In this document: positions 14,108 to 37,905 of the stretch, piece by piece
Layout of the letters: every line of letters begins with the position of its first letter
Position numbering within the stretch: the first letter of the stretch is position 1
From: Clostridium sp. KNHs205
GTDB lineage: Bacteria > Bacillota > Clostridia > Lachnospirales > Lachnospiraceae
DNA: 64,000 nt
Assembly: GCF_000702945.1 (NCBI RefSeq)
Contig: NZ_JNLE01000003.1
Span: forward strand, 3,519,501-3,583,500
Reading direction: 5' to 3'
Notes under the pieces: generated by a model
Database searches by the model: none
What the model was told of the DNA's origin: nothing
Seen by the model: the letters and a program-made list of their open reading frames with translations, nothing else
Program-made: the position numbers and the translations under genes

Positions 14108-17107
14108 ATGATATCCAGGGCAACCTGTAAAAGAATCATGGCACTATTTTTAACAGTTGTAGTCTTACTGCCTCTGTTTCTAATAGGAGAAGTAAAGAGC
14201 TTTGCAAAGACAGAGATGACAATGGACGAATTTGATGATGTTATCAGTACCTATAATATTGATACTTCCATACCCTCCTATAAGGTCTATATGGAGGAGC
14301 ATGAAGAGGCTCATAGACCTGACCGGACAATCGAGGTTATGGCAGAAAATTATGTAAGATATGAAGAGAACAATAAAATTGCTGAACCTGAAATACACAA
14401 GAATTATGAAGGCATGGAAGGTGCCAGTGTTCTTACGGGGGAGGATTCCCTTATAGAGTTTGAGGCAGAGGTAGCGGAAACCGGATTATATAATCTCTCT
14501 GTAGTTTATTACCCGGTAGAGGGCAAGAACTCAGACATAGAACGCAGCATATTTATCGACGGAAAGCTTCCCTTTGAGGAAATGGCCTTACTTTCCTTCC
14601 CCAGAGTATGGAGCACCTATGTAAAAGATTCTTCTATAAATGAAGCTGGTGTTACTATAAAAAATTGGGAGAAGGATAATCAGGGGAATGATGTAAAACC
14701 ACAAAGTATTGAGGTACCGGAATGGCAGAGCAGATATTTGTATGACAGTAACGGCTATATAACAGAAGCCTTATCCATTTACCTTGAAAAGGGCAGTCAT
14801 ACAATTTCTGTGATTTCTTTAAAGGAGCCTATGTTAATCCGTAAATTGGTACTTAATAATGAAGGTATCACAAAATCCTATGAGGATATAAAAGCTGAAT
14901 GGGATTCTAAGGGCGGTAAGGATACAAGTGATACCAATATACGGATAGAAGCTGAATATGCCACAAAGACATCATCACAGATGCTCTACCCAAAACAGGA
15001 TCAGTCATCCCCTGCGGTTTCTCCCTCCAGTTCCAAAGAACTGCTTAACAATACCATTGGCGGGAATTCCTGGAGGCTAGTGGGGCAATGGATTGAATGG
15101 GAGTTTACAGTTCCGAAGAGCGGGTATTATTACATATCCCTGTATGATAAACAGAGTCTTTCCAGAGGTGTTCATGTTTCCAGGCGTATTACCATAGATG
15201 GAGCTGTTCCCTTTCAGGAAATGTCCGCTTATGCTTTTGATTACAGCCAGGATTGGAGAGAAGATGTGCTGTCTGATAAAGAGAATAAGGCTTATCGCTT
15301 CTATCTGTCAGAAGGACAGCATAGTCTTCGGATGGAAGTCGTATTGGGTGAATTTTCGGAGGTCGTGGGTCTTGTCAGGGATTCTGTACAGCAGCTTAAC
15401 AGCATATACAGACAGGTGATAAAGGTAATTGGTGTTAAACCGGATACCTATCGTGATTATCAGCTGTCAGCAGTTCTGCCGGAGTTGAAGGGCAAGCTTA
15501 CAGCGGCAAGGGATACGCTGAACCAGGCAATTGACGAGCTTTCAAAAGTAGCAGGAAAAAATACGGATAAGAAAGCCGTACTTTTGACCATGCGGGACCA
15601 GCTGGATAAGCTCATTGAAGACGAAGAATATTTTGTAAGAGTTATTACAGCTTATAAGATAAATGTAAGAGCCTTGGGCAATTGGATAACTCAGGCGATT
15701 AATCAGCCCCTGCAGGTAGACCGTATCAATATCTATTCACCAGATCAAAAAAATACCTACCACGGGGATTCCTTCCTTGATAAGGCTGCATTTGAAATAA
15801 AGCGGTTATTTTATTCCTTTATAGTTGATTACAACTCCATAGGAAGCGTAACTGATGATAAGGTGCAGGGAACCCAGTCCATTACCTTATGGATTGGTTC
15901 AGGACGTGATCAGGCCAATGTTATAAAGTCATTGATTGATGAAAGCTTTACCAATGAGTCGGGAATCAGTGTGAATGTACAGCTGGTGGATATGTCGACT
16001 CTGCTAAAGGCGACGCTGGTGGGAGAGGGGCCGGATGTAGCTATCCAGGTAGCAAATACCAACGGTGCTGCAGGAGCTGTGCTGAACACCGGAAATGATA
16101 CACCGGTCAACTACGGAATCCGTAATGCAGTACTTGATCTTAAGCAGTTTAAGGATGCTGATGAAATCCTTTCAAGGTTCTTAGCTGCGGCAACTACTCA
16201 GTTTACTTATGAAGATGGTGTTTATGCTTTACCGGAGACCATCACTTATCCGGTTATGTTCTACCGGAAGGATATTTTGGCCGAGATTGGAATGAAAGTT
16301 CCTTCTACCTGGGAAGAGGTAAAGGTTGCAATGGCTGTCCTTGCCAAGAATCAGATGGAATTTGGTATGCTGCCTACGGAACAGATATTTGCATCAATGC
16401 TCTATCAGAATGGCGGGGCCTATTACACAGAGAATGGAGCGGCATCTGCGCTGGATTCTGACACAGCAGTAAATACCTTTAAGGATTTCTGCGAATATTA
16501 TACGGATTATAAACTGGATAAGGAAACCAGCGTGGAAGAACGTTTCCGTACCGGTGAGTGTCCGATTATGATAGCGGATTACACCACCTACAATAATTTT
16601 GCAGTATCGGCGCCGGATATAGCAGGGCTCTGGAGCTTTACCCAGATACCCGGAACTGTAAAAGCGGATGGTACAGTGGATCATTCCGTAGCAAGCACTG
16701 GCCTTGCCAGTATGATTATGGCAGATACCGTAAATCCAGAGGCTAGCTGGGAATTCTTGAAATGGTGGACCAGTGAGGATACACAGACTCAGTATGGCCG
16801 TGAAATGGAGGGGCTGATGGGTTCTGCAGCGAGAGTTCCGACAGCCAATTATGAAGCCTTTTTAAATATGCCCTGGCCTGTGGATGATTTCGAGGCTTTA
16901 CAGGAATCCATGAAATGGGTGAAAGGTATTCCCCAGGTACCTGGTGGTTATTATTCCTGGCGAAATGTTTACAATGCATTTTTTAAGGTGGTAACCAATA
17001 CGGATACAGCTTTGCCAAGAGAAGAACTGATGGATAAGATCATCTATGTAAATGCGGAGATTACATACAAACGGGAAGAGCTTGAACTGGATGGCAAGAG
17101 AAAATAA
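14108..17107 (+). CDS. 999-aa extracellular solute-binding protein fused to carbohydrate-binding-like domains
   Basis: An exported protein with an N-terminal signal (hydrophobic run ALFLTVVVLLPLFLIG) but no lipobox. Two beta-sandwich, CBM6/35-like segments are suggested at ~75-250 and ~275-430; the second starts IRIEAEYA and contains WRLVGQWIEWEF. A helical stretch follows (~440-560). Residues ~590-960 are a family 1 solute-binding domain (ITLWIGSGRDQANVIKSLIDESF, YALPETITYPVMFYRKD). Ordinary binding proteins are 400-550 aa, so this is a fusion of glycan-binding and transport-receptor functions. It precedes the permease pair it presumably serves. Ligand inferred to be manno-oligosaccharide. 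Confidence 0.8.
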   Translation: MISRATCKRIMALFLTVVVLLPLFLIGEVKSFAKTEMTMDEFDDVISTYNIDTSIPSYKVYMEEHEEAHRPDRTIEVMAENYVRYEENNKIAEPEIHKNYEGMEGASVLTGEDSLIEFEAEVAETGLYNLSVVYYPVEGKNSDIERSIFIDGKLPFEEMALLSFPRVWSTYVKDSSINEAGVTIKNWEKDNQGNDVKPQSIEVPEWQSRYLYDSNGYITEALSIYLEKGSHTISVISLKEPMLIRKLVLNNEGITKSYEDIKAEWDSKGGKDTSDTNIRIEAEYATKTSSQMLYPKQDQSSPAVSPSSSKELLNNTIGGNSWRLVGQWIEWEFTVPKSGYYYISLYDKQSLSRGVHVSRRITIDGAVPFQEMSAYAFDYSQDWREDVLSDKENKAYRFYLSEGQHSLRMEVVLGEFSEVVGLVRDSVQQLNSIYRQVIKVIGVKPDTYRDYQLSAVLPELKGKLTAARDTLNQAIDELSKVAGKNTDKKAVLLTMRDQLDKLIEDEEYFVRVITAYKINVRALGNWITQAINQPLQVDRINIYSPDQKNTYHGDSFLDKAAFEIKRLFYSFIVDYNSIGSVTDDKVQGTQSITLWIGSGRDQANVIKSLIDESFTNESGISVNVQLVDMSTLLKATLVGEGPDVAIQVANTNGAAGAVLNTGNDTPVNYGIRNAVLDLKQFKDADEILSRFLAAATTQFTYEDGVYALPETITYPVMFYRKDILAEIGMKVPSTWEEVKVAMAVLAKNQMEFGMLPTEQIFASMLYQNGGAYYTENGAASALDSDTAVNTFKDFCEYYTDYKLDKETSVEERFRTGECPIMIADYTTYNNFAVSAPDIAGLWSFTQIPGTVKADGTVDHSVASTGLASMIMADTVNPEASWEFLKWWTSEDTQTQYGREMEGLMGSAARVPTANYEAFLNMPWPVDDFEALQESMKWVKGIPQVPGGYYSWRNVYNAFFKVVTNTDTALPREELMDKIIYVNAEITYKREELELDGKRK

Positions 17108-17120
17108 CGGAGGGAAAGAG

Positions 17121-18080
17121 ATGACTGAACATAATAATAATTCCCAGGTAAATGTATCCCAGAAGGCTCTGGAAATAGCAAGAAAACAAGGAACTTTGAG
17201 ATACCGGATTAAAAAGAGCAAAGCTTCTTATCTGATGCTGGCTCCCTACTTTATATTATTTTTCTTCTTTACTGTGCTTCCGGTGGTTATGAGTATTGCC
17301 TTTAGCTTTACATATTATAATATGCTGGAGCTGCCGGAATTCATAGGCTGGAAGAATTACATAAAGCTTTTCCTTGAGGATGATATATTCTTAAAATCCT
17401 TAAAGAATACACTAATACTGGCTGTAATCACCGGTCCAGTAAGTTATTTTCTTTGTCTTTTATTTGCATGGATAATTAATGAGTTCAAAGGCTGGCTGCG
17501 TGCTTTTCTGACCTTAATCTTTTATGCACCAAGTATCTGCGGTAATGCCTATGTGGTGTGGGCCTTGATTCTGTCAGGAGACCGGTACGGATATTTAAAC
17601 GGTCTGCTTATGGATCTTGGTATTTTGGATCAGGCAATCGTATGGATGAAGACAGAAAAATATGTGCTTCCTTTCCTGATCGTGGTACAGCTTTGGTTAA
17701 GTCTTGGAACGGGCTTCCTGGCTTTTATAGCAGGTCTTCAGACCGTAGATAAATCTCTTTATGAAGCAGCAGCACTGGATGGGGTTAAAAATCGCTGGCA
17801 GGAGCTGTGGTATGTGACATTACCTGCCATGAAGCCTCAGCTTATGTTCGGTGCGGTAATGCAGATCACACAATCCTTTGCCATAGCAGACGTCTCCATA
17901 CAGCTGGCAGGTAATCCTTCCGTTAACTACTCCGGAACTACAGTAGTTACCCATTTGCTTGATTATGGTACGGTACGTTTTGAGATGGGGTATGCCTCTG
18001 CAATTGCAACGGTACTGTTTCTTTTGATGATAGGTACGAACTTGCTGGTACAGAAGGGATTAAGGAGGGTAGGAGAATGA
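17121..18080 (+). CDS. sugar ABC transporter permease (MalF-type), system 1
   Basis: About 319 aa with six predicted membrane segments and the permease EAA loop (LYEAAALDGVKNRWQELWYVTLP, near residue 225) that contacts the ATPase. It belongs to the binding-protein-dependent CUT1-type family. The start is ATG 17121 after GGAGGGA; an earlier in-frame ATG would run into the solute-binding gene. The stop overlaps the next permease by 4 bp. No ATPase is encoded in the operon, so a shared MsmK/UgpC-type ATPase encoded elsewhere is expected. Confidence 0.9.
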   Translation: MTEHNNNSQVNVSQKALEIARKQGTLRYRIKKSKASYLMLAPYFILFFFFTVLPVVMSIAFSFTYYNMLELPEFIGWKNYIKLFLEDDIFLKSLKNTLILAVITGPVSYFLCLLFAWIINEFKGWLRAFLTLIFYAPSICGNAYVVWALILSGDRYGYLNGLLMDLGILDQAIVWMKTEKYVLPFLIVVQLWLSLGTGFLAFIAGLQTVDKSLYEAAALDGVKNRWQELWYVTLPAMKPQLMFGAVMQITQSFAIADVSIQLAGNPSVNYSGTTVVTHLLDYGTVRFEMGYASAIATVLFLLMIGTNLLVQKGLRRVGE

Positions 18081-18958
18081 TGAAGAAGCTGAAATTACGT
18101 TTATTCAGGCCAAGAGAAAAGCGGTTGAATCGCTCCATGGCAGGTAATTCCTTATTATTTTTCATTATGGCTGTCTGTGGTGTGGCAATGATGCTGCCGC
18201 TTATCATGGTAATCAACAATTTCTTAAAACCCTTGGATGAGTTATATCAATTTCCACCAAAAATATTTGTGAGGAACCCAACCCTGGTAAATATTTCTGA
18301 CTTATTTACCTTAATGAATGATTCCTGGGTTCCATTCTCAAGATACATATTAAATACGGTTATTATCACAGGCGGAGGAATGCTTGGGCATGTAATTATT
18401 GCATCCCTGGCAGCCTATCCTCTTGCTAAGCATGATTTTCCGGGAAAGAATTTACTATTTCATCTGGTAGTGCTGTCTATGATGTTTTCCTGGACAGTAA
18501 CCCAGACACCTCAGTATATGATCATTTCCTGGCTCCATATCAATAACAGCTACTGGGCATTGATTCTGCCTGCCTGTTCTTTCGGTATGGGCCTTTACCT
18601 GATGAAGCAGTTTATGGAACAGCTTCCGGATTCTCTTATGGAATCCGCCAGACTTGATGGTGCAAGCGAATGGCAGATTTATTGGAGGATCGTAATGCCG
18701 AATGTGAAGCCTGCCTGGCTTACGCTAGCTATCTTTCAGTTTCAGCAGATGTGGGGAAATACCGGCAGTACTTTCCTTCGAGATGAGAGTCTTAAGCCTC
18801 TGCAATTTGCCTTACAGCAGATTTCTGCAGGCGGAATGGCAAGAGCAGGAGCCGCGGCTGCAGTAACCTTTATAATTGCCGCAGTTCCCATAACATTTTT
18901 CCTTATATGTCAGAAGAATATCCTGGAAACTATGACATCATCCGGAATGAAAGATTAA
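18077..18958 (+). CDS. carbohydrate ABC transporter permease (MalG-type), system 1
   Basis: A 293-aa partner permease with six predicted membrane segments and an EAA-type loop (LMESARLDGASEWQIYWRIVMP). It starts with ATGATG overlapping the stop of the MalF-type gene. It pairs with that permease and the 999-aa binding protein to form importer 1 in the cytoplasmic membrane. An NHL-repeat gene starts 15 bp downstream with a GGGGGTG ribosome site, so the operon continues. Confidence 0.9.
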   Translation: MMKKLKLRLFRPREKRLNRSMAGNSLLFFIMAVCGVAMMLPLIMVINNFLKPLDELYQFPPKIFVRNPTLVNISDLFTLMNDSWVPFSRYILNTVIITGGGMLGHVIIASLAAYPLAKHDFPGKNLLFHLVVLSMMFSWTVTQTPQYMIISWLHINNSYWALILPACSFGMGLYLMKQFMEQLPDSLMESARLDGASEWQIYWRIVMPNVKPAWLTLAIFQFQQMWGNTGSTFLRDESLKPLQFALQQISAGGMARAGAAAAVTFIIAAVPITFFLICQKNILETMTSSGMKD

Positions 18959-18973
18959 TAGGGGGTGTAAAGG

Positions 18974-20461
18974 ATGAAACATATTAGAATATCACACAAG
19001 ATCATATCCCTATGTCTGACTGTGCTCCTGCTTACGGTTTTTGCAGGAGAAGAAGTTAAGGCTTCCAAACTTCCCTATGATACCTATAATTACGATTACC
19101 GCGAATATGTCCATTTTACTCCGGCAGCCTTTGTTCCGGCTGGAACCATACGCGGGGAGCAGCTGACTTATCAGGGAGTGGCTGTGGGAAAGTTTCTAAC
19201 ACCCCAGGATATCTGCCAGACAAGCGATGGCAGGGTCTATGTGGCTGATACGGGGAATAACCGGATTGTTGTGTTGGATAAGGATATGAAAAAAGCTGTA
19301 AATGTTATAACGTCCTTTAATAACGGCGGAAAAGAGGATACCTTTAATCAACCCTATGGTGTCAGTGTTTCCGAAAAAGGACAGATATACATAGCAGATT
19401 CCCAAAACCGCCGGATCGTTGTGCTGAACCAGGATGGTACTTTGGTTAAGATTGTAGAGAATCCTCAGTCAGAGAGCTTAGAAGAAGGTTATGTCTTTAT
19501 ACCGCTAAAAATAACGGTTGATTATGCAGACAGAATCTATGTTATTGCTCAAAATATGTTCGAGGGCATTATGGTATTTGAAGCAGACGGTAATTTTTCA
19601 AGCTTCTTTGGTACCATAAAGGTTGAAATAAGTCTCTGGGAGAAATTCTGGAAGAGAATTGCAACAAAAGAAGAGCGTTCCAAGCAGCAGTTATATATAC
19701 CCACAGAGTTTACCGGCATTGACATCGATCCGGAGGGGTTTGTATACGCATCCAATATCGACTCTACAGGTGTGCAGGGGGTTAGAAGATTAAATCCCAA
19801 AGGTGAAGATGTCATAAAAAAAGGTGCCAATAAAAATGTGGGAGGTGATCTTTGGATTGCCGGTTCTACAGATTATTCAGGACCTTCTCAGTTTACAGAT
19901 GTAGTTTACAGGGATAATGGCATATATTCCTGCCTGGACCGTAAGAGAGGACGTATTATTACCTATGACCATGAAGGAAATCTGCTTTATATTTTTGGCG
20001 GCCTGGGCACTCAGGAAGGCACATTCTCCATGCCTGTGGCTGTGGAGGACATTGGAGGGAATCTTGCAGTCCTTGATGCCAATAGAGGAGAAATTATATG
20101 CTTTTCAGTAACGGAATACGGAAGGCTCATCGATGAAGCAGTAGCACTTCGTTTTGACGGCAACGAAGCAGAGGCTGTGGCTTTATGGCGCAGAGTGCTG
20201 GAACTTGATGAGAATAATGAACTTGCCAATACAGGTATCGGAAAAGCTTATCTTACGGCAGGGGATTATGACCTGGCAATGAAATATCTAAGACTTGGTA
20301 TGAACCGTGACTACTATTCCATAGCCTATAAGCGATTTCGTAATAGTGTTCTGATAGATAATGCAAGTTATTTTCTTACTGGCATTGCAGTACTCATCGT
20401 TGGTTTAAAAGGCTTTAAATATGTAAGGAATAGAAAGAAGGGGGTTAACATAAATGGGTAA
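18974..20461 (+). CDS. membrane-anchored NHL beta-propeller protein with TPR segment
   Basis: A 495-aa exported protein. The signal peptide covers residues 1-30. Residues ~60-375 carry several NHL repeats (ICQTSDGRVYVADTGNNRIVVLD and YGVSVSEKGQIYIADSQNRRIVVLN are two) predicted to fold as a beta-propeller. Residues ~385-445 look like one or two TPR-type helical repeats (EAVALWRRVLELDENNELANTGIG). A membrane segment sits near the C-terminus, followed by a basic tail, so the propeller faces outside. It overlaps the next gene by 8 bp. NHL propellers bind protein, RNA or glycans; here a scaffold or glycan-binding partner of the transporters is a guess. Confidence 0.8.
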   Translation: MKHIRISHKIISLCLTVLLLTVFAGEEVKASKLPYDTYNYDYREYVHFTPAAFVPAGTIRGEQLTYQGVAVGKFLTPQDICQTSDGRVYVADTGNNRIVVLDKDMKKAVNVITSFNNGGKEDTFNQPYGVSVSEKGQIYIADSQNRRIVVLNQDGTLVKIVENPQSESLEEGYVFIPLKITVDYADRIYVIAQNMFEGIMVFEADGNFSSFFGTIKVEISLWEKFWKRIATKEERSKQQLYIPTEFTGIDIDPEGFVYASNIDSTGVQGVRRLNPKGEDVIKKGANKNVGGDLWIAGSTDYSGPSQFTDVVYRDNGIYSCLDRKRGRIITYDHEGNLLYIFGGLGTQEGTFSMPVAVEDIGGNLAVLDANRGEIICFSVTEYGRLIDEAVALRFDGNEAEAVALWRRVLELDENNELANTGIGKAYLTAGDYDLAMKYLRLGMNRDYYSIAYKRFRNSVLIDNASYFLTGIAVLIVGLKGFKYVRNRKKGVNING

Positions 20462-21086
20462 ATATTTTTCAAAAGAAAAATGGAATTATATGTTTTACAC
20501 CATTTCTCATCCCATGGACGGCTACTATTGGATTCGCCATGAAAATAGAGGAAGTGTTCCCCTTGCAATACTTATGGTAATCCTGTTTTCCGCTTGTTTT
20601 AGTGCAAACCGTTTACTTGCCAGTTTTGTGGTAAGTGATATAGATCCCAGATCCGTGGATAGTTATTACGAATTTTTAGGTGTCCTTGCCTTTTATGCCT
20701 TGATATGTGTCAGCAACTGGTCTGTGACATGTCTGATGAACGGTGAGGGCAGAATGAAGGATATAGCTATAGCAGTCGGCTACAGTACGGTACCCATGAG
20801 CACGGTGCTGGCTGCCGGTACCTTAATCAGCTGGTTCATTGCTGATGATGAACAGCCTTTCTATGTATTGCTCCTGGGGGGAGGAATTGCATTCGGTATC
20901 CTTTTAATGCTGATTGGTATTATGCAGGTACATAACTATTCTTTGGGAAAAACCTTAGGTACCTTATTTATCACCTTTTTAGCTATGCTGGTAATCATCT
21001 TTCTGCTGTTGCTGTTATCAAATCTTCTGGGCATGGTAGTGACATTTATTCGGAGTATCTACACAGAGATAATATTTAGAACTTAG
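20454..21086 (+). CDS. Yip1-family multi-pass membrane protein
   Basis: A 210-aa protein with five or so hydrophobic segments. The Yip1-type pattern is visible: MFYTISHPMDGYYWIRHENRGS before the first membrane helix, then a block with VGYSTVPMSTVL. Bacterial Yip1 proteins have no established function. The gene sits between the NHL/TPR and DUF5696-like genes with tight spacing (8-bp overlap upstream, 11 bp downstream), which implies obligate co-expression. A role in assembling the large envelope proteins around it is conceivable but unsupported. Confidence 0.75.
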   Translation: MGKYFSKEKWNYMFYTISHPMDGYYWIRHENRGSVPLAILMVILFSACFSANRLLASFVVSDIDPRSVDSYYEFLGVLAFYALICVSNWSVTCLMNGEGRMKDIAIAVGYSTVPMSTVLAAGTLISWFIADDEQPFYVLLLGGGIAFGILLMLIGIMQVHNYSLGKTLGTLFITFLAMLVIIFLLLLLSNLLGMVVTFIRSIYTEIIFRT

Positions 21087-21097
21087 GAGGCGTAAGC

Positions 21098-23707
21098 ATG
21101 AAGACTTTAATAAAGAAGCAAAACCGTCGGCCCTTCAGCCTGATAAAGAAAATCGTGCTTTGTATCTTGAGTACTGTACTGGTAGTTGGAATAATCTATC
21201 TGATCTATTATGCCATTCATTACCTGGCTTACGACAAGTACAGGGATTATCTGACAAGTTACGATTATGAAACCGGAGAAGAGTACCAACCGGTGAAAGA
21301 AAATAAAACAGACGTACCAGGAATGGAACTGGTATGTGAAAATGAATATTTAAAGCTGTATACGGATACTGCCACCGCTGCCGTTGCAATCTATGATAAG
21401 AGAAATGGAGAAATAAGTTACTCCAATCCGACCGATGCGGAGGAGGATGGTATCGCTAATGATGCCAATATGAATTATCTGAAATCCCAATTAATCGTAA
21501 ATTATTATAATCCGGAAGTGAAATCCGGTACCTATGATTCCTACAGCATGGCGGTAGAAAAAGGACAGATAACCGTTGAAAGCCTTAAAAATGGTCTTCG
21601 TTACATCTATCGTCTGGGGGATTTCAATAGCAGCAAAACCGGTATCATCCCAATATATATTACCCGGGAAAAGTTGGAGGAAATCAGAGGAAAGCTTTCT
21701 GAGAAGGATTCTGTTTCCTTAGAAAGATATTACATAGAAAGTACTGCTACAAAGGGTATGCTTGAACTTAACGGAGTTGTTAAGAAGAATCCGAAAACTA
21801 TCAAAAAAATTCAGGAATGGCTTGCTAATATTGGCTGGACGAATGAGGATTATGAAGAACAGATGGAACTTGCAGGGGTTGAAACCATTCTTCCGATTTC
21901 CTTTCAGATTCCTTTGGAATACAGGCTTACGGAAGATGGCTTAAAGGTATCCATTCCAGTGTCTGCAATTGAGGAATATGGCGGCGGTTCTATATACCGG
22001 ATTCAGTTACTGCGTTATATGGCAGCTGCGAATACAACAGAAAATGGTTATATGGTTGTACCAAATGGTTCCGGTTCTTTGATTGATTTTAATAACGGCA
22101 AGATTGCAGCAGCCTCTTATTCGCAATATGTCTATGACATTGATCCGTTGGCTGCAAATTATACGACTACAGAGAACAGTATAAGTGCTAAACTACCGTT
22201 GTTTGGAATTTGCAGAGAGAAGTCCTCTGTCCTTGCAACCATTGAAAGCGGAGCAAGTCTTTCAGTGATAACAGCCGGAATTTCCGGTGTATATAACGAA
22301 TATAACTATGCATATCCAACCTTTGTGCTTCGTACAGCCGATAATCTCAGGATGTTTGGAAATACCAGCCAGGACGTATTAGTACTGGAGCCAGAACTAT
22401 ATGATGCCAATCTGGAAGTAATGTATACCTTCCTGACAGAAGAATATAAGGGTTATGCAGGCCTTGCAGGTTATTACAGAGAAAAGCTGATAGCTGAAGG
22501 AGTACTTACTCCGGGCTCTCAAACGGGAGATATTCCTTTTTATTATGATGTTATCAGCGGTGTAAAGGAAACGGCTCATTTTCTTGGAAAACAGTATCTG
22601 CATACCTTTTCCATGACTACTTTTGATCAGGCTGCCAGGATATCTGAGGAACTTTCAGCTCAGGGAATAAACAACCAGGTGATGAATCTGCAAGGTTGGT
22701 TTAACGGCGGGTATTATCATAATACAGCTGACAAGATAAAGATTCCAGGGAAACTTGGAGGGAAATCAGAGTTAGAAAACCTGAGCAAAACCCTGAAAAA
22801 AAATGGCGGAAGGTTATACGCCGATGTTGCCTTACAACAGATAACCTATGCAGATAAGGATTTTAACTATAATGCAGAGGCTTCTAAGTATTACGGAGCA
22901 GGATATGTGGTAGCCTTAGGGCAGGTAAATCCTGCAACCTTAAGAAGCACTTCAAGTCTTGGATATATGGAGACAGTATACAATTTGCTCTCTCCCAGAT
23001 ATCTGCCCAGATACGTGAGCAAATTTGCTGAAGAAATGAATGCTTATGATATAGAGGGTATCTCCTTAAGAGATCTTGGAAATATAGTTTATTCAGACAA
23101 AAAACGTAGGAATATAATCGACAGGGAAGAAGCCCTAAAAGTGGTGTTGGGACAGCTTGACCTATTAAAAGGTACGGGTAAGAAGCTCATGACCAATAGT
23201 GCCAATGATTATAGCTTTGGGTATAGTTCAGATATTATTAATGTACCCATTGAACAGAATAATTTCCTCATTGTAGATGAACGGATTCCTCTTTATGAAA
23301 TGATTCTGCACGGTAGTATTCCCTATTCTACAGAGCTGTTAAATTATGAGGACAAGGAAGGTATGAAGGAAACCGTACTTAAAATGATTGAAAGTGGTGC
23401 TGCGCCTCATTATATTTTCACCTGGGAAGAGTCAAACAAGATGAAGAATACCGGTTTAAACAGGTATTATGCGACTACTTTCGGAGTTTGGAAGGCAGAT
23501 GCAATTGCAATATACAAGCAGGTAAACGAACCATTAAGCCAGGTAAGGGGTTCTGTGATGCAGAATCATGAAATTCTCTCAAACGGTGTAAGAAAGGTTA
23601 CTTATGACAATGGCACCGTAATCTATATCAACTACAGTGATGAAGTACAGCTGACAGATGGGTATGAGATACCGGCAAAAGGCTATAGATTGGAGGGGAC
23701 GAAATGA
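21098..23707 (+). CDS. DUF5696-like membrane-anchored protein, possible glycoside hydrolase fold
   Basis: An 869-aa protein anchored by one N-terminal membrane helix (residues ~17-43), with the rest outside. Residues ~75-470 are rich in beta strands. Residues ~480-780 look like a (beta/alpha)8 barrel: YADVALQQITYADKDF, VVALGQVNPATLRS, EGISLRDLGNIVYSD, then TWEES. The last ~60 residues (RKVTYDNGTVIYINYSDEV) resemble the small C-terminal beta domain of several glycoside hydrolases. The family assignment to DUF5696 is from recalled gene order and composition. A beta-sandwich plus barrel plus beta-domain plan recalls GH101/GH129-like enzymes; this is inference. It ends 4 bp into the next permease gene. 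Confidence 0.65.
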   Translation: MKTLIKKQNRRPFSLIKKIVLCILSTVLVVGIIYLIYYAIHYLAYDKYRDYLTSYDYETGEEYQPVKENKTDVPGMELVCENEYLKLYTDTATAAVAIYDKRNGEISYSNPTDAEEDGIANDANMNYLKSQLIVNYYNPEVKSGTYDSYSMAVEKGQITVESLKNGLRYIYRLGDFNSSKTGIIPIYITREKLEEIRGKLSEKDSVSLERYYIESTATKGMLELNGVVKKNPKTIKKIQEWLANIGWTNEDYEEQMELAGVETILPISFQIPLEYRLTEDGLKVSIPVSAIEEYGGGSIYRIQLLRYMAAANTTENGYMVVPNGSGSLIDFNNGKIAAASYSQYVYDIDPLAANYTTTENSISAKLPLFGICREKSSVLATIESGASLSVITAGISGVYNEYNYAYPTFVLRTADNLRMFGNTSQDVLVLEPELYDANLEVMYTFLTEEYKGYAGLAGYYREKLIAEGVLTPGSQTGDIPFYYDVISGVKETAHFLGKQYLHTFSMTTFDQAARISEELSAQGINNQVMNLQGWFNGGYYHNTADKIKIPGKLGGKSELENLSKTLKKNGGRLYADVALQQITYADKDFNYNAEASKYYGAGYVVALGQVNPATLRSTSSLGYMETVYNLLSPRYLPRYVSKFAEEMNAYDIEGISLRDLGNIVYSDKKRRNIIDREEALKVVLGQLDLLKGTGKKLMTNSANDYSFGYSSDIINVPIEQNNFLIVDERIPLYEMILHGSIPYSTELLNYEDKEGMKETVLKMIESGAAPHYIFTWEESNKMKNTGLNRYYATTFGVWKADAIAIYKQVNEPLSQVRGSVMQNHEILSNGVRKVTYDNGTVIYINYSDEVQLTDGYEIPAKGYRLEGTK

Positions 23708-24636
23708 ATGGAAAAAAAAGAATGACGCTTCTCCAAAAACGAAAGATGACAGGACTTTTATTTATTCTGCCCTGGTTTGTGGGATTTCTGGTCTTTTATG
23801 TGAGATCCATACTTCTGGCAGGACAGTTTGCCTTTTCTGAACTAAATATGGATGCGGTGAATGGCGGTTACAGTCTTACAAATGTCGGCTGGGAGAACTT
23901 CCGCTATGCCTTCCGTGTCCACGGCACTTTTAAACAGATACTTACGACTTCAGTACTGGATATGCTGGTGGATGTTCCATTAATTACTTTTTTCAGCTTA
24001 TTTATGGCAATACTGCTCAACAAAAAATTTAAGGGAAGAACCATTGTAAGAGCGATTTTCTTTCTGCCAATTATCCTGAACTCCGGAGCAATTACCGCAG
24101 CCATGGAATTATCTGCTCAGATGATGCAAGGGGGAATTTCGTCCCAGGCAGCAGAGATGTTATCGTCATCTGCCTCAGCCGGCTCTACCCTTGCTCTGGA
24201 TATGGACTTTTTTATCGATATGTTCATGAATCTGGGTCTTCCGGTGACGTTAATCGGTTATATTATAACTGCTGTTGCCCGTATCAATGATATCATTGCA
24301 GCTTCCGGTGTGCAGATAATAATCTTTATTGCTGCATTGCAGTCCATACCGGGTTCTATGTACGAGGTGGCAAAGATTGAAGGGGCTACCGGATATGAAA
24401 CCTTTTGGAAGATTACTTTTCCTATGGTAATGCCACATATCATAACCAACGTGGTATACACCATAGTAGACAGCTTCACGGAAAGCGGAGTGGTTGATCT
24501 GGCCTATAAAACAGCATTTAACGAATTTAACTATGGACTGAGCAGTGTCTTCAGTCTGGTATCAACCATAATCACCTGTATTATTCTGGTAACAGTCTGC
24601 GGGCTGATACAGAAGCGTACTTTCTACTACAATTGA
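23704..24636 (+). CDS. sugar ABC transporter permease, system 2
   Basis: A 310-aa CUT1-type permease with six predicted membrane helices. The EAA-type loop reads MYEVAKIEGATGYETFWKITFP near residue 220. It overlaps the DUF5696-like gene by ATGA and precedes a second permease by 18 bp. It is a separate transporter pair from that at 17.1-19.0 kb; the two MalF-type proteins differ clearly in sequence. An insert of ~35 residues rich in Ser/Ala/Met (QMMQGGISSQAAEMLSSSAS) between helices is unusual for the family. Confidence 0.88.
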   Translation: MNGKKRMTLLQKRKMTGLLFILPWFVGFLVFYVRSILLAGQFAFSELNMDAVNGGYSLTNVGWENFRYAFRVHGTFKQILTTSVLDMLVDVPLITFFSLFMAILLNKKFKGRTIVRAIFFLPIILNSGAITAAMELSAQMMQGGISSQAAEMLSSSASAGSTLALDMDFFIDMFMNLGLPVTLIGYIITAVARINDIIAASGVQIIIFIAALQSIPGSMYEVAKIEGATGYETFWKITFPMVMPHIITNVVYTIVDSFTESGVVDLAYKTAFNEFNYGLSSVFSLVSTIITCIILVTVCGLIQKRTFYYN

Positions 24637-24654
24637 GGAAAGGAGAAGCATATC

Positions 24655-25647
24655 ATGATAAAAAATTCTGCCTTAACAGATGGTTTCCTTAGGCTTAAAG
24701 CTATAGCAAGTGACAAAGATCAGGGTAAAAGCCTTCTTAGTAATGTAAAGAAGTTCCTGATCAGTGTATCAAGAATTGCCATATTGATTGGAGTTGGATA
24801 TGTAATCCTGTCGCCAGTCATCGGCATGATAGTAAACTCCATTTCCTCAGATCGGGATGCTTACAATCCAATGGTATTTGTATTACCGCAATTTCCAACG
24901 CTGGAAAGGTACCGGCTTGTTTATGAGTCCCTTGATTATCTGCCTACCATGGCAAGGGATCTCCTTTACACCTTATCCCTGATGCTGCTGCAAATTCTTG
25001 TATGCTCTATGGTGGGATATGGTTTTGCAAGATTTGATTTTCCTTTTAAGAAGCTTTTGTTTGGCTGTGTGGTGGTGATGATCGTTATCCCTGTACACAC
25101 AATTATGTTGCCGTTATACATAACCTTCCGACAGTTTGATCCATTTGGCATTGCCACTGCACTAACAGGTTCGTCGATTAACCTCATGGGTACCCCGGTC
25201 CCTATGTATATTATGACAGCTCTGGGGTGCGGGTTGAGGTCAGGTTTATATATTTATATCTTCAATCAATTTTTCAGAGGGCTTCCCAAGGAAATAGAGG
25301 AGGCAGCATTTGTAGATGGTGCAGGCGTTTGGTATACCTATTTTAAGATTATGCTGGTAAACGCTACACCGGCTGTCATAACCGTAGCAGTGTTCTCAAT
25401 GGTATGGCAGTTCAATGATACTTTTTTTGCGAAGTTATTTTTGATTAGTGAGGATGTGGTAATCAGTAAAAAGATCTCTATTTTGCAGGCAACCATAGCA
25501 AACGATTATAAGATCCTGGATACAGCCATACAGGAATTATATCTGAATGCCGGCATTATATTAGTTATCTTGCCTATATTGATTATCTATCTGTTACTAC
25601 AGAGATACTTTATAGAGGGTGTGGAGAGAAGCGGTATTGTGGGGTAG
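24655..25647 (+). CDS. carbohydrate ABC transporter permease, system 2
   Basis: A 330-aa MalG-type permease with an EAA loop (EIEEAAFVDGAGVWYTYFKIML). A cytoplasmic N-terminal extension of ~40 residues precedes the first helix. The ATG follows AAAGGAG. It pairs with the permease just upstream, and the solute receptor is probably the lipoprotein at 27.6 kb. Confidence 0.88.
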   Translation: MIKNSALTDGFLRLKAIASDKDQGKSLLSNVKKFLISVSRIAILIGVGYVILSPVIGMIVNSISSDRDAYNPMVFVLPQFPTLERYRLVYESLDYLPTMARDLLYTLSLMLLQILVCSMVGYGFARFDFPFKKLLFGCVVVMIVIPVHTIMLPLYITFRQFDPFGIATALTGSSINLMGTPVPMYIMTALGCGLRSGLYIYIFNQFFRGLPKEIEEAAFVDGAGVWYTYFKIMLVNATPAVITVAVFSMVWQFNDTFFAKLFLISEDVVISKKISILQATIANDYKILDTAIQELYLNAGIILVILPILIIYLLLQRYFIEGVERSGIVG

Positions 25648-25701
25648 TTTTCTCTTGCCTGGAAGCTATTAACTTTTATCTTAAAAGGAGGAGTGAAAAA
25701 G

Positions 25702-27561
25702 GTGAAGAACAAAAAAATTTTAGCCTGCCTGCTGGTGGGCACCATGGCTTTGGCTTTGGTGGGCTGTAAAGGTGACGGTACGAAGAAAACGGATGCAGAT
25801 GTAAAGAACGAGATTGTTCAGGAAGTGACCTCTACACCGGAACCGGAGACAGAGCCTGTTCAGGAAACGGTAACGGCAAGCCTGGATTTTGAAGACGGTA
25901 ATATGGGGTTTGTTTCTTTGTATACCCAGTCTGCTGATGCAGATAATTCGGAACTGTCAATTGTAGATTACAACGGAAGTAAAGCTCTGCAGGTAAAGAA
26001 TATGGAGGGAAAGGTTCCTTATGTTGGATTTGATGCTACCAGCCTGCTGGGAGCTGATGTTACGAAAGTGGCTGCTTTGGAGATGACTATCGGAACAGCA
26101 TATGGTAACGGCAGTTTCAGTGCTTCTTCCGGAAATATTCTTACCTGGACCGGTGAAAAGCTTGAAGAGACCAAATATGACTGGTCTGTATATCTGGATA
26201 CCAAAAATCCAAACAAAGCAGTTGCGAAGCTGGATACCGGAAAAGAGTTCATAGCAGATGCCGGCAATATCTTTATTATATGCCTTAAGACAGATAATGG
26301 CGTAACAGAAGGAAATGGAAATGCTACCATGTATATCGATGATATCCGTTTCCTGGATGCTTCCGGTAATGTATTGACAGCAAACAGCTCAGTTGCTTTT
26401 GCTCCGCCCAAAGGCTTTGAAAGTACAGGTATCGATCTGTCCAATCTGGCAGCAGTTACAAATGCCGTGAACTTTGAAGGATTTGCTTGTACGGGAGCCG
26501 GCTGGGCACAGAACGGTTTTGAAATGCCGAAGGAAATAATCGATGCTTTGGTACCCGGTTCTGTAGTGGAAATTGAGTATACCAGTGAAAATGGTGATAT
26601 GTGGCTGGTTATTCCCGGAGCAGCTGCAGGTTGGATGAGAGTCGGAGATGGTACCAATAGTAAAGCTTATATTAACAACTCTAAAAACGTTGCGCAGATT
26701 ACCTATGAGCAGATAGCTGAGTTCTGCGGAGAAGACAAAGCTGCCTGGGGTACTACCATGCAATGTGAGGCTTCCGGTGCCTGGGAAGTTTACAGTGTGA
26801 AGGTTGGCACAAAATCAACGGTATATGGTTTATCCAATCCGGTGGAATTCAAAGATTTCGCCTGCAAAGCAGATGCCTGGGCACAGAGTGGTTTTGACAT
26901 GCCCCAGGAAATTGTAGATGCCCTGGTACCTGGTTCCGTTGTTGAAGTAAGTTATACCAGTGAATCCGGCAAGCTGTGGTTAGTAATACCCGGAGCAGCC
27001 GCTGGCTGGATGAGAGTTGGTGATGGTACCAATGGTTCAGCTGTAAGTTATAATGGCAAGAGTTACATTACCTACGAACAGATTGCAGAATTCTGCGGTG
27101 AGGATAAGTCTGCCTGGGGTCTTACAATGCAGTGCGAATCCGATACGCCCTGGGAAGTATATGGTGTAAGGGTAGGAACAGCTTCTGCCATGAACATGCT
27201 GAACAATGTGGTGGAATTTAAAGATTTCGCCTGCAAAGCAGATGCCTGGGCTCAAAATGGCTTTGATATGCCTCAGGAAATCCTGGATGCCTTAGTACCA
27301 GGTTCAGTAGTTTCTGTTAAATACACCAGTGAATCAGGAAAACTGTGGCTGGTAATGCCGGGAGCGGCGGCAGGCTGGATGAGAGTTGGTGATGGTACCA
27401 ATGGGCAGGCAGCAAACAGTGATGGAATTGCTCAAATAACCTATGAACAGATTGCAAAGTTCTGCGGAGAAGACAAATCCACCTGGGGAACTGTGATGCA
27501 ATGTGAATCGGATACGCCCTGGGAAGTATACAGCGTAAGCGTAGGCCAGGCCGCTAAATAA
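25702..27561 (+). CDS. lipoprotein with three ~124-aa tandem glycan-binding-like repeats
   Basis: About 619 aa. The signal peptide ends with the lipobox LALVGC. Residues ~55-230 form a beta-rich domain (LDFEDGNMGFV at the start, ATMYIDDIRFLD at the end) typical of carbohydrate-binding modules. Three tandem repeats follow (nucleotides ~26467, 26842 and 27211 onward), each with WAQ-GF-MP-EI-DALVPGS, WLV-PGAAAGWMRVGDGTN and ITYEQIA-FCGEDK. Repeats 2 and 3 are near-identical even in DNA, suggesting recent duplication. Each repeat has several Trp. No catalytic or solute-binding fold is seen, so a surface glycan-capture role is inferred. GTG 25702 (10 bp after GGAGG) is preferred over GTG 25693, which lies too close. 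Confidence 0.75.
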   Translation: MKNKKILACLLVGTMALALVGCKGDGTKKTDADVKNEIVQEVTSTPEPETEPVQETVTASLDFEDGNMGFVSLYTQSADADNSELSIVDYNGSKALQVKNMEGKVPYVGFDATSLLGADVTKVAALEMTIGTAYGNGSFSASSGNILTWTGEKLEETKYDWSVYLDTKNPNKAVAKLDTGKEFIADAGNIFIICLKTDNGVTEGNGNATMYIDDIRFLDASGNVLTANSSVAFAPPKGFESTGIDLSNLAAVTNAVNFEGFACTGAGWAQNGFEMPKEIIDALVPGSVVEIEYTSENGDMWLVIPGAAAGWMRVGDGTNSKAYINNSKNVAQITYEQIAEFCGEDKAAWGTTMQCEASGAWEVYSVKVGTKSTVYGLSNPVEFKDFACKADAWAQSGFDMPQEIVDALVPGSVVEVSYTSESGKLWLVIPGAAAGWMRVGDGTNGSAVSYNGKSYITYEQIAEFCGEDKSAWGLTMQCESDTPWEVYGVRVGTASAMNMLNNVVEFKDFACKADAWAQNGFDMPQEILDALVPGSVVSVKYTSESGKLWLVMPGAAAGWMRVGDGTNGQAANSDGIAQITYEQIAKFCGEDKSTWGTVMQCESDTPWEVYSVSVGQAAK

Positions 27562-27599
27562 TGGCAAGACAAGGGGACATTGAAGGAGGATATGGAATA

Positions 27600-29057
27600 A
27601 TGAAAAATTTGAAAAAAGTAATAGCTCTTTGCTTATCTGTTATGATGGTCGTATCAATGTTTGGATGCAGTAAAAAGACTGAGAAAGACACTCCCTCCAG
27701 CAGCGAAGTCACAGAAAGTGCCACAGAAGTACCTACAACAGAACCTGTGAACAATACTGGTGAAAAAAGAACAATCAATATTGGTACCTGGTGGATACAA
27801 TACTATGACAGTTCCCATAAGTCCGTAGAGGATGATCCCTCGTATTCAGGTTTGGATGTAGCACATTTGAAATTTGATAATGTAAAAAAGATTCATGATA
27901 AATACAATGTAGATTTCTTCTGGAAAAACCTGACTTATGCAGGAGTTCAGGAATCTATTAATAATTCCATTCTTGCAGGTACACCTGATTGTGATATTTA
28001 CCTGGTAGAGCTGGCGTTTGGTATACCGGCAGCACTTAACGGTCTGGCTACTGATATGAAAACTGTTCTTCCGGCGGATAACGATCTCTTTACCACACAA
28101 AAGAATATAACTTACCTGGATCTGGGTGACGGTAAAGCGACACTGCTAAAGAGGGTAGAAGCAGCTTCTACGATAGAAGCAACCTATCCCTTAGGCTTTA
28201 ATATACAGATGCTGGAAGATAATAACCTGGAAGATCCCAGAAAATTATATGAGCGAGGAGAGTGGACCTGGGATAAATTCATCGAATATTGTAAGGTACT
28301 GACAAAGGATTCGGATGGAGACGGTCAGACAGATCAATATGGCTATTGCGGTTTCCAAAATGAGACCTTCGAGCAGCTGCTTATGAGTAACGGTGCACAT
28401 GTTGCGGCAACCAAAAAAGAGGAGCTTTCTTCTGCGGCAACGGGTGAAGCTCTGCAGATGATGTCAGATATGTACAATGTATATAATGTTGCCTATCCTT
28501 ATGATTTTGAAAGCGGCGACGACGCTACCACCATGAGGGGACAGTACCGTGAAGGAAATATCGGTTTCTTTCCTATTGCAGCATGGATTGCAGCAGATAA
28601 GGCAGATTATGACTACTCAGGTGCAAACGGCTCTACCCTTGCATTTGATACGGCCTATGTTCAGTGGCCGGTAGGTCCTTCCGGTAATAAGGATACCAAT
28701 GCCGGTAAAGTATCAGCAGGTGAATACTATATTATACCTGCAGGGGTAAAAGATCCGGAAACAGTTTACAACGTGCTTTATGATATGTGGAACTGGTATG
28801 ACGGAGATACTTCTGTTCGAGATGATGAAGAGACTCTGTATTGGTGGTATGCAGTTACTGCTTCTGATGAAACCTTACAGAATGAGAATTTCTCCATTAT
28901 GGAAGATGTCGGCAGAAGAGAAACCTTTGAGCTTTGGAATCAGCTGGGTATCTCTTACGATCTTCACTCTCTGATCAAAGGGGAGACCACACCTGCACAG
29001 TTCCAGGAAACCTATAAACAGCAGGTACAGGATGCACTTGATGCCTATTTTAAGTAA
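27600..29057 (+). CDS. ABC transporter extracellular solute-binding lipoprotein
   Basis: About 485 aa. The lipobox is MVVSMFGC. After a Ser/Thr/Glu-rich linker comes a family 1 solute-binding fold (INIGTWWIQYYDSS, CDIYLVELAFGIPAAL, EEPRKLY-type ERGEWTWDKFIEYCKVLTKDSDGDG). DSDGDGQTD resembles a Ca-binding loop. It is the probable receptor for permease pair 2. The start is ATG 27600 after AGGAGG at 9-bp spacing; an in-frame ATG at 27561 directly abuts the previous stop without a ribosome site. Ligand inferred from context to be an oligosaccharide. Confidence 0.88.
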   Translation: MKNLKKVIALCLSVMMVVSMFGCSKKTEKDTPSSSEVTESATEVPTTEPVNNTGEKRTINIGTWWIQYYDSSHKSVEDDPSYSGLDVAHLKFDNVKKIHDKYNVDFFWKNLTYAGVQESINNSILAGTPDCDIYLVELAFGIPAALNGLATDMKTVLPADNDLFTTQKNITYLDLGDGKATLLKRVEAASTIEATYPLGFNIQMLEDNNLEDPRKLYERGEWTWDKFIEYCKVLTKDSDGDGQTDQYGYCGFQNETFEQLLMSNGAHVAATKKEELSSAATGEALQMMSDMYNVYNVAYPYDFESGDDATTMRGQYREGNIGFFPIAAWIAADKADYDYSGANGSTLAFDTAYVQWPVGPSGNKDTNAGKVSAGEYYIIPAGVKDPETVYNVLYDMWNWYDGDTSVRDDEETLYWWYAVTASDETLQNENFSIMEDVGRRETFELWNQLGISYDLHSLIKGETTPAQFQETYKQQVQDALDAYFK

Positions 29058-29099: not shown

Positions 29100-29155
29100 G
29101 CAGCGGCTGCGCTGCCGTATACAAATAGAAATTACAGGGCGGGGTGCCGCCCTGT
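29100..29155 (+). promoter_or_regulatory. two GC-rich hairpins between binding protein and phosphorylase
   Basis: GCAGCG-GCTG-CGCTGC (29100-29115) and ACAGGGCGG-GGTG-CCGCCCTGT (29134-29155, 9 bp perfect) sit in a 120-bp gap. The second is followed by only AAAAAGG, not a T run, so an mRNA-stabilising or processing role is more likely than full termination. They are very GC-rich for this window. Confidence 0.6.
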
Positions 29156-29178
29156 AAAAAGGTAGAATGGAGGAATTT

Positions 29179-30201
29179 ATGAGCGATTTAAAAATGATAG
29201 CTCCTGCGGTGCCAAATGTTCCCTGGCAGGAACGTCCGGCAGGGTTAAAGGATGCCCCGGTTTGGAGATATACAGAAAATCCAATCATTGGACGTAATCC
29301 CGTAAAAGGCGTTGCCAGAATATTTAACAGTGCGGTCATGCCTTATGGGGATGAATTTATTGGTGTTTTCCGCGGTGAGCAGACGAACGGTATTCCTTAT
29401 ATCTACCTGGGTAGAAGTAAGGATGCCATTCACTGGGATTTTGATGAGAATAAAATACCTTTTGTGGATAGTGAGGGTAAATCCTTTATGCCGCTATATG
29501 CCTATGACCCAAGACTGGTAAAGGTAGAGGATACCTATTACATCATTTGGTGTCAGGATTTTTACGGTGCGGCAATCGGTATGGCTAAAACAAAGGATTT
29601 TGAAAGCTTTGAAAGAGTGGAAAATCCATTTCTGCCTTATAATCGAAATGCAGTGCTGTTTCCCCGGAAAATCAACGGAAATTTTGTTATGTTAAGCAGA
29701 CCCTCTGACAGCGGGCATACACCTTTTGGTGATATCTTTGTTAGTGAAAGTCCGGATCTCACTTTTTGGGGTAAACACAGACATGTTATGGGAAGAGGCA
29801 GTAACTGGTGGGAATCCTTAAAAATTGGCAGCGGTGCAACTCCTATTGAGACCAGTGAAGGTTGGCTTTTGTTCTACCATGGGGTAAGCGGTACCTGTAA
29901 TGGCTATGTATACAGCATTGGCGGAGCAATTCTGGATCTTGAGAATCCCTCCATCGTAAAGTATCGTTGTGAGACCTTCCTGCTTACGCCGGAGGAGTGG
30001 TATGAAGAGAGAGGATTTGTTCCCAATGTAATTTTTCCTTGTGCTACCATTCATGATTCAGAGTCTGGAAAGATTGCCATTTACTATGGTTCAGCAGATA
30101 GTTATGTCGGTCTGGCCTTCACCAAATTTGATGAAATCATAGCCTATATCAAGGAACATAGCAATGTATCCGCAAGTGATACGGAAGTTGGTAACAGATA
30201 G
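29179..30201 (+). CDS. GH130 beta-mannoside phosphorylase
   Basis: A 340-aa cytoplasmic five-bladed-propeller enzyme that would cleave beta-1,4-mannosides with phosphate to release mannose 1-phosphate. The catalytic Asp110 lies in YAYDPRLVKVEDTYYIIW. Phosphate-site and propeller motifs are present (NRNAVLFPRKINGNFVMLSRP, SDSGHTPFGDI, KIGSGATPIET, WLLFYHG). No signal peptide. The RRIFNS-like VARIFNSAV start and length favour the mannooligosaccharide phosphorylase branch (GH130_2) rather than mannosylglucose phosphorylase, but this is recalled, not tested. ATG 29179 (5 bp after GGAGG) is preferred to ATG 29167. Last gene of the operon. Confidence 0.88.
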   Translation: MSDLKMIAPAVPNVPWQERPAGLKDAPVWRYTENPIIGRNPVKGVARIFNSAVMPYGDEFIGVFRGEQTNGIPYIYLGRSKDAIHWDFDENKIPFVDSEGKSFMPLYAYDPRLVKVEDTYYIIWCQDFYGAAIGMAKTKDFESFERVENPFLPYNRNAVLFPRKINGNFVMLSRPSDSGHTPFGDIFVSESPDLTFWGKHRHVMGRGSNWWESLKIGSGATPIETSEGWLLFYHGVSGTCNGYVYSIGGAILDLENPSIVKYRCETFLLTPEEWYEERGFVPNVIFPCATIHDSESGKIAIYYGSADSYVGLAFTKFDEIIAYIKEHSNVSASDTEVGNR

Positions 30202-37707: not shown

Positions 37708-37853
37708 CCGTTGGTAATTAAACGGTAAACTGCATGTAGCTGTTTTGGAAATCAGAAATAATTTCTGCTCACATTTCTTTTTGAGCTTTATCTAAAGATA
37801 ACAGTGGCAGGTATAAGTTTAGGTTGAAAAAAGAAAAAGCGTTTTCAACTACA

Positions 37854-37894: not shown

Positions 37895-37905
37895 AGGTTA
37901 ACAGG

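Follow-up and report, generated by a model that had tools for sequence, protein, structure and literature searches.

What machine is encoded where an NHL-repeat propeller protein, a Yip1-domain membrane protein and a large DUF5696 protein are packed among two pairs of sugar permeases? The question is raised by a gene cassette at 14108 to 29057 of a 64,000-nucleotide stretch of Clostridium sp. KNHs205 (NCBI RefSeq assembly GCF_000702945.1, contig NZ_JNLE01000003.1, positions 3,519,501 to 3,583,500 of the forward strand), hereafter called the window. The most fitting view of the cassette is that of a CUT1 importer accompanied by three additional surface and membrane proteins, among them a glycosidase relative that is mostly dead, and by an optional second importer. 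Its gene set is far more conserved than the sequence of the window alone could show.

All ten genes that a sequence-only reading had placed between 14108 and 29057 are present on the plus strand with the character claimed for them. They are listed here with the two flanking enzyme genes (GH, glycoside hydrolase family; CBM, carbohydrate-binding module; SBP, solute-binding protein; perm, permease; TM, transmembrane segment; ORF, open reading frame).

12509 to 14077, + strand: GH26 mannanase-type lipoprotein with CBM35 (PF02156, 1.1e-71; PF16990, 2e-19); substrate accessory, outside the core
14108 to 17107, + strand: SBP1, 999 aa, with anchored N-terminus, CBM-like N-terminal domains, a helical-looking spacer and a solute-binding domain
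17121 to 18080, + strand: permA, CUT1 permease of MalF/UgpA type (PF00528, 2.6e-12; EAA loop; listed ORF start 17052)
18077 to 18958, + strand: permB, CUT1 permease of MalG/UgpE type (PF00528, 3.6e-15; EAA loop)
18974 to 20461, + strand: NHL propeller and TPR protein with signal segment and C-terminal TM (NHL, 1.1e-15); core triad
20454 to 21086, + strand: Yip1-domain multi-pass membrane protein (PF04893, 2e-10); core triad
21098 to 23707, + strand: DUF5696 protein with N-terminal TM anchor, GH129/GH101-type (PF18952, 1e-188); core triad
23704 to 24636, + strand: permC, CUT1 permease, partner of the triad (PF00528, 1.1e-6); its ATG overlaps the DUF5696 stop
24655 to 25647, + strand: permD, CUT1 permease, partner of the triad (PF00528, 3.1e-13)
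25693 to 27561, + strand: lipoprotein with three CBM65 domains (PF18259, 4.5e-73, three stretches); substrate accessory
27600 to 29057, + strand: SBP2, solute-binding lipoprotein (SBP_bac_1, 7e-6; listed ORF start 27561)
29179 to 30201, + strand: GH130 phosphorylase (PF04041, 2.1e-69; listed ORF start 29167); substrate accessory

For permA, SBP2 and GH130 the starts at 17121, 27600 and 29179 are likelier than the listed ones, as judged by eye from ribosome-binding sites. The tight packing of the triad with the permeases, claimed before this revision, persists after it as overlaps and short gaps from SBP1 through permD. All four permeases match PF00528, and SBP1 and SBP2 supply the extracytoplasmic component, in keeping with CUT1 importers. 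A pattern search for an EAA-type motif succeeded with permA, permB and permD; in permC it gave no hit, and a similar stretch, YEVAKIEGA, can be seen there by eye. SBP1 possesses SBP_bac_8/1 at its C-terminal end and two GH115_C stretches (beta-sandwich, 2.6e-7) at its N-terminal end. The protein described earlier as DUF5696-like is DUF5696 itself (629 bits with PF18952, gathering score 25.6), the Yip1 protein scores 41.2 bits with PF04893 (gathering score 28.6) and shows several TM segments by hydropathy, and the repeats of the triple-repeat lipoprotein are the three CBM65 domains (243 bits with PF18259, above the gathering score). CBM65 presumably binds glucan or xyloglucan; a phmmer search with this lipoprotein gave no PDB chain at E<=0.01. 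At the same threshold the sole PDB match of SBP2 is the arabino-oligosaccharide-binding protein 6rjy (6.3e-16). The NHL match lies above its cut-off. The TPR call in the same protein stood only in part: single-sequence matches were all below cut-offs, and a profile of four paralogues matched designed TPR proteins in the PDB over residues 382-436. Hydrophobic segments were located at 4-28 (signal) and 458-478 (C-terminal TM) of the NHL/TPR protein, and as one N-terminal segment each in SBP1 and DUF5696. Based upon this hydropathy pattern, and that of Yip1, the large soluble parts of SBP1, DUF5696 and the NHL protein probably lie outside the cell.

The arrangement was compared in named relatives, the best 80 of at least 515 found by scanning genome contigs and, as the closest relatives, a biased sample; the best of them is an Anaerocolumna metagenome-assembled genome whose DUF5696 is 92% identical to that of the window. 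Where the contigs allow, Yip1 is adjacent to DUF5696 in 79/79 of these loci, NHL lies upstream in 72/72, permC is adjacent in 77/77, permD is in place in 72/72, and SBP1 is found upstream in 59/59. A broader sample consisted of 398 genomes drawn evenly from the phylum, in which up to three candidates per genome were scored and matches to PF18952 with E<1e-100 were called strong. Any match was found in 46 of the 398 genomes and a strong one in 37, the host's own genome included. All strong listed matches outside the host genome gave 55 loci. In their raw counts Yip1 is adjacent in 52/54, NHL upstream in 54/54, permC in place in 52/53 and permD in 52/52; the misses at two loci (L121 and L170) are overlong ORF calls, with a Yip1 ORF in place in both and a permC ORF in L170. 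The order is kept throughout the 80 named and 55 phylum loci as far as the contigs show, except that some of the 55 have SBP1-permA-permB in another place or lack it. The commonest spacing of DUF5696 and permC in both sets is a 4-base overlap. NHL and Yip1 are fused in 35 phylum loci and in 0/79 named loci.

A profile of 18 cassette-type Yip1 proteins, built largely from cassettes of the same sampled genomes, matched strongly (best E at or below 7.2e-40) in 37 of the 398 genomes, the same 37 that possess strong DUF5696. The next match has E 5.4e-11, and weaker matches are distributed in 14 other genomes. Because the profile was drawn largely from carriers, the informative part of this co-occurrence is the lack of strong Yip1 in the other 361 genomes. 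Five genomes of 2-3 Mb (G040, G062, G082, G135 and G165) carry 8 to 22 DUF5696 matches each, against four in the host; 34 of their 35 listed Yip1 matches are closely followed by a DUF5696 match, and the one that is not lies on contig 104 of G135.

A total of 200 genomes of the host's family were searched in addition (strong, E<1e-90), giving any PF18952 match in 79 and a strong one in 43, again with the host included. Ten of the 71 strong rows outside the host genome, mostly low-scoring ones, were inspected together with ten short divergent homologues. The ten full-length loci (L256-L265) contain all eight of SBP1, permA, permB, NHL, Yip1, DUF5696, permC and permD, nine of them in the usual order. 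Near the ten short homologues (L246-L255, 560-719 aa) there is neither NHL nor Yip1 nor a complete SBP1; the hidden Markov model missed the DUF5696-like ORF of L255. The cassette was seen in Lachnospiraceae and in a named Paenibacillus, as the sequence-only reading had stated for similar gene sets, and its view of the triad as a real, conserved, membrane-bound unit with CUT1 transporters is borne out by near-complete adjacency in the named and phylum loci. Its proposed neighbourhood survey, which looked for triads apart from transporters, was run and the claim stood: in the 135 named and phylum loci the triad lies with permC/permD wherever this could be tested, ORF misses allowed for. No relative was found in the viral contigs scanned. 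One metagenome-assembled genome labelled Anaerolineaceae (L012) carries a cassette whose DUF5696 is 54% identical to that of the window, through either transfer or mis-binning.

The host genome itself (6.36 Mb) contains four DUF5696 genes, all inside four copies of the cassette, and each of its four Yip1 Pfam matches is within a cassette. The three further DUF5696 proteins are 22-27% identical to the window copy (25-28% in the search that located them). The order SBP1-permA-permB-NHL-Yip1-DUF5696-permC-permD-SBP2 was found in all three other loci, examined over up to 20 kb around each; in one of them (L006) NHL and Yip1 form a single 685-aa ORF. The four copies fall in four separate groups of a 116-row tree, built by a quick method and with the join of L007 and L258 flagged as a long-branch join, and therefore are not recent duplicates. 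Distance matrices of 93 complete cassettes correlate at 0.92-0.97 among the eight components and at 0.85-0.94 for SBP2. Such correlations reflect shared inheritance rather than physical contact, and we do not offer them as proof.

The earlier description of the locus as a dual transporter is not supported if it means one unit whose parts must go together. The triad keeps firmly to permC/permD, and SBP1-permA-permB may be downstream, absent from the 20 kb examined, or fewer in number. Among 44 phylum loci where this could be tested, SBP1 is upstream in 29, only downstream in six and absent from the stretch examined in nine. The five many-copy genomes possess DUF5696 and SBP1 matches in numbers of 11 and 6 (G040), 11 and 4 (G062), 22 and 10 (G082), 10 and 4 (G135) and 8 and 4 (G165), counts that include fragments, above all in G082; all five are fragmented assemblies. 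An SBP1 homologue is present in all 37 genomes with strong DUF5696, the one in G103 being cut by the contig; five more genomes (G007, G054, G093, G127 and G157) match SBP1 over the solute-binding domain only. Since DUF5696 outnumbers SBP1 and SBP1 sometimes occurs alone, these are two modules: one is NHL-Yip1-DUF5696 together with permC/permD; the other, SBP1-permA-permB, often accompanies it and can be parted from it.

What DUF5696 is became visible through its short relatives. A direct PDB profile search with DUF5696 gave a weak match to NagBb, a GH129 enzyme (PDB 5wzn, E 0.015), and single-protein comparisons were weak or null (the GH129 protein L176, 70.6% over the C-terminal part; L175, 0.2%). 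Nine short GH129-type homologues aligned together match NagBb with E 1.1e-264, two of the nine, the intermediates L246 and L247, have PF18952 matches of 4.9e-53 and 1.5e-48, and hhalign of 59 DUF5696 proteins against the nine GH129-type proteins gave 99.0% and E 4.2e-18 over 468 columns, a span that takes in the beta-domain, the barrel and the C-terminal domain. As these steps bridge the gap, profile comparison places DUF5696 in the GH129/GH101 superfamily. Cassette DUF5696 proteins group in a single clade that excludes the GH129 rows (quick tree, SH-aLRT 98). The intermediates at L246:8976-10655 and L247:8927-10678 retain both catalytic residues and lie outside any cassette, and are possibly living relatives of the ancestor. 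A GH36 identity, prompted by weak PF18952 matches also in the controls Thermotoga maritima and Lactococcus lactis, was dropped. Of six places with weak PF18952 matches, four were assigned by Pfam to alpha-amylase (one), DUF6259 (two) and GH129 (one), and at the remaining two the chosen ORFs were assessed on the first 60 residues only.

The catalytic positions were read from a joint MAFFT alignment of 150 cassette DUF5696 proteins and the nine GH129-type homologues. D435, E478 and W398 of NagBb were located by counting along the printed chain, and we take D435 and E478 to be the GH129 catalytic Asp and Glu. The hhalign placement of the catalytic Asp is one column off; the MAFFT placement was used because the flanking residues of L246 and L247 match it. 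The pair is kept in 9/9 GH129 homologues and in 6/150 cassette copies (L007 of the host genome, L121, L122, L124, L126 and L158), with the Asp kept in 107/150 and the Glu in 18/150. The window protein has D659 and N700, with Asn at the acid/base position. Of other polar residues invariant in GH129 (L248 numbering), His365 is kept in 0/150, His449 in 0/150 and Asp370 in 3/150 cassette copies. Much of the Gly/Trp/Pro scaffold of GH129 is retained. Trp398 is described as a stacking platform in NagBb in the part of PMC8106489 consulted. As the catalytic pair is mostly lost, the trimming function ascribed to the machine by the sequence-only reading is doubtful. We read the DUF5696 family as mostly non-catalytic and as a putative substrate-presenting subunit of an MsmX-type ABC importer.

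The substrate of the cassettes differs with their neighbours. Accessory genes were counted by BLASTP at E<=1e-10, short contigs being scored as misses. GH26 relatives occur at 49/80 named loci, 5/55 phylum loci and 0/3 paralogous host loci, CBM65x3 relatives at 55/80, 0/55 and 0/3, and GH130 relatives at 34/80, 1/55 and 0/3. Being rare or missing in the phylum and host paralogous loci, they are accessories of the window's clade; mannan specificity belongs to them and not to the machine. Among the other host cassettes, GH10 and GH43 genes lie beside L005 and a GH35 gene beside L007, compared with GH26 and GH130 in the window. Flanking proteins picked by eye match GH10/GH43, GH35, GH8, GH3 and pectate lyase in different cassettes, and a cassette of Butyrivibrio fibrisolvens on pNP243 adjoins a GH43 gene. 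On a plasmid of Paenibacillus cellulosilyticus (L245) the cassette follows a ugpC ATPase gene and has NHL and Yip1 fused.

No ATPase is encoded in the operon. The host genome (97.9% complete) contains one PF17912 match of MalK/MsmX type, on another contig (C5:1517344), and this ATPase would energise the cassette permeases. BLAST of the host ATPase and the Paenibacillus UgpC against the collected loci other than L246-L265 found only the P. cellulosilyticus one. The use of a shared MsmK/MsmX ATPase by CUT1 importers, and an msmK deletion with the predicted phenotypes, are described in the part of PMC8579813 consulted.

We propose a conserved Gram-positive oligosaccharide-uptake module composed of a CUT1 importer, a membrane scaffold and an anchored pseudo-glycosidase, and give this proposal about an even chance of being right. 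The core would be the permC/permD importer, often with a nearby SBP2-type protein. To it would be joined the DUF5696 pseudo-glycosidase and a scaffold of the TM-anchored NHL propeller/TPR protein and Yip1, sometimes one protein. The second module, SBP1-permA-permB, would usually stand alongside, with SBP1 anchored and bearing domains of glycan-binding type, and swappable hydrolases and CBM proteins would set the substrate. For the window, GH26, the three CBM65 domains and GH130 point to beta-mannan or glucomannan. Surface GH26 would cut the polymer, the CBM65 lipoprotein and SBP1 would hold chains at the cell, and DUF5696 would bind oligosaccharides and present them to the permease; one or both permease pairs would import them with the shared MsmX/UgpC-type ATPase, and GH130 would carry out intracellular phosphorolysis. 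We infer the function of the cassette from its gene context alone; that its proteins form a complex, what substrate they carry and in which direction, and that DUF5696 presents ligands are likewise putative. A stronger form, advanced tentatively as a possible reading, is a distinct class of ABC importer: the NHL/TPR-Yip1 scaffold and the catalytically dead GH129-type protein would be obligate extra subunits of permC/permD, forming a docking machine on the Gram-positive cell surface to which a second importer could be added and which an exchange of SBP2, CBM and hydrolase genes could direct to different glycans.

Several observations weigh against this proposal or its parts. One family locus, L256, has the order permC-permD-SBP1-permA-permB-NHL-Yip1-DUF5696 with no cassette gene after DUF5696; as permC/permD here lie upstream of SBP1, the core order is not absolute. 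SBP2 is less conserved and correlates less with the rest than any other component, so we pair it with permC/permD only conditionally. SBP1 occurs in three genomes that lack a DUF5696 match (in G104 and G154 near contig ends, and partly in G080). Around the P. cellulosilyticus cassette lie several flavin oxidoreductases of the LLM class and additional binding proteins rather than glycosidases, which suggests a substrate other than plant polysaccharide, so that not every cassette need serve plant glycans; the divergent cassettes L164, L169 and L172 have few carbohydrate genes by eye. Moreover, we know of no proven transport role for Yip1 and TPR domains. The locus could be two ordinary CUT1 importers of different specificity that share an operon, the triad being hitch-hiking surface proteins. 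The separation of the modules, with SBP1-permA-permB only downstream in six and absent in nine of the 44 testable loci, and the different order in L256 would fit; an order that hardly changes across four clades within one genome and across many genus groups, the frequent fusion, and the identical genome sets of DUF5696 and cassette Yip1 do not, and we consider this explanation very unlikely.

Residue conservation also counts against a purely dead DUF5696. D659 is kept in the 107 copies noted for the Asp, His738 (GH129 His519) in 119/150, and acids at both 576 and 659 in 95/150; across 138 copies the weighted conservation of D667 is 93% and that of E765 97%. Some clades, the window's included, may therefore have a re-purposed active site. 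If so, DUF5696 might be an active membrane-bound glycosidase that trims side chains before import with a re-purposed pair, for example D576 and D659. Its relation to GH129, the invariance of D576, R658, D659, D667 and R676 in 59 orthologue rows, the 95 copies with both acids and the canonical D/E pair in six copies, L007 of the host among them, speak for such an enzyme. Yet Glu occupies the acid/base position in just 18 of the 150 copies and Asn does so in the window, neither acid is present at 576/659 in 19/150 (including L006 of the host), and mannan-, xylan-, galactoside- and pectin-type neighbours alike fit a substrate-specific enzyme poorly; we hold it doubtful. Alternatively, the triad could be a sensor or an assembly or quality-control device that regulates or builds importers and does not handle sugar, with the propeller/TPR part outside and Yip1 in the membrane. 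NHL and TPR are usually protein-contact modules, which counts for such a device, as do the tighter linkage of the triad to permC/permD than to SBP1-permA-permB, the Yip1 membrane domain and the NHL-Yip1 fusion. Against it count DUF5696, a large relative of glycosidases that is probably located outside the cell, and the lack of any Pfam signalling domain in the NHL, Yip1 or DUF5696 proteins; we judge it unlikely.

Compared with known systems, CUT1 importers that share MsmX/MsmK (for example in Caldicellulosiruptor, Bacillus subtilis and Streptococcus pneumoniae) likewise have permease pairs and binding proteins with the ATPase unlinked. To our knowledge, classical CUT1/MsmX systems have no NHL/TPR, Yip1 or DUF5696 subunits. 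In Bacteroidetes, SusC/SusD-type systems couple surface capture and uptake and are encoded with swappable hydrolases; this is an analogy only, and no SusC/SusD-type protein was found among the cassette Pfam matches. Glycan capture and hand-over to importers in Gram-positive gut and soil bacteria are less understood than SusCD. The GH129/GH101 alpha-N-acetylgalactosaminidases (NagBb, 5wzn; EngBF, 2zxq) align with DUF5696 over the 468 columns and differ from the cassette proteins, which have an N-terminal hydrophobic anchor (in the window), a clade of their own and the loss of most aligned active-site residues. The Roseburia intestinalis beta-mannan locus shares a GH26 mannanase, a binding protein with two permeases and GH130 phosphorylases, and, in the part of PMC6385246 consulted, names one binding protein and one permease pair, unlike the cassette; 'NHL', 'Yip1', 'hypothetical' and 'unknown function' are not present in its main text.

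A word search for NHL and Yip1 in the texts of PMC12710961, PMC8579813, PMC12838199, PMC5865380 and PMC12096829, C. bescii papers included, found neither. No paper on DUF5696, on Yip1 with NHL and an ABC transporter, or on pairs of the product names was found; the broader matches listed (in two cases the top 20 of 46 and 15 of 69) looked unrelated from their titles and abstracts. 'YIP1 family protein' occurs in a bacteriocin paper, PMC10707071. In agreement with the claim that the unit had not been described, no description of the cassette was found in the literature searched, most subscription journals being outside the search. In other genomes the triad proteins are annotated as 'NHL repeat', 'YIP1 family' and 'DUF5696'. 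If the proposal is right, proteins under these labels would be subunits of a widespread glycan importer, PF18952 would gain a function, and DUF5696 would illustrate how a relative of glycosidases can be retired into a transport role.

Some further features of the window were recorded. An 11-pair GC-rich hairpin between SBP2 and GH130 (29132-29157) is terminator-like on the minus strand only, and for this reason may be an mRNA-stabilising or processing element on the plus strand. A complete-looking group II intron (9500-11300, with Rfam D1-D4 and catalytic matches) encodes a reverse transcriptase/maturase at 9814-11226 and sits between an AraC-type regulator/polysaccharide deacetylase pair and the GH26 gene. 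In the region 35123-49243, genes for a histidine kinase, for response regulators and for Peripla_BP_4 proteins precede a distinct ABC importer of the monosaccharide type, with a binding protein at 45142, a double ATPase at 46485 and a BPD_transp_2 permease at 48047. A GH5 cellulase-family gene is found on the opposite strand at 53545-54822 (-).

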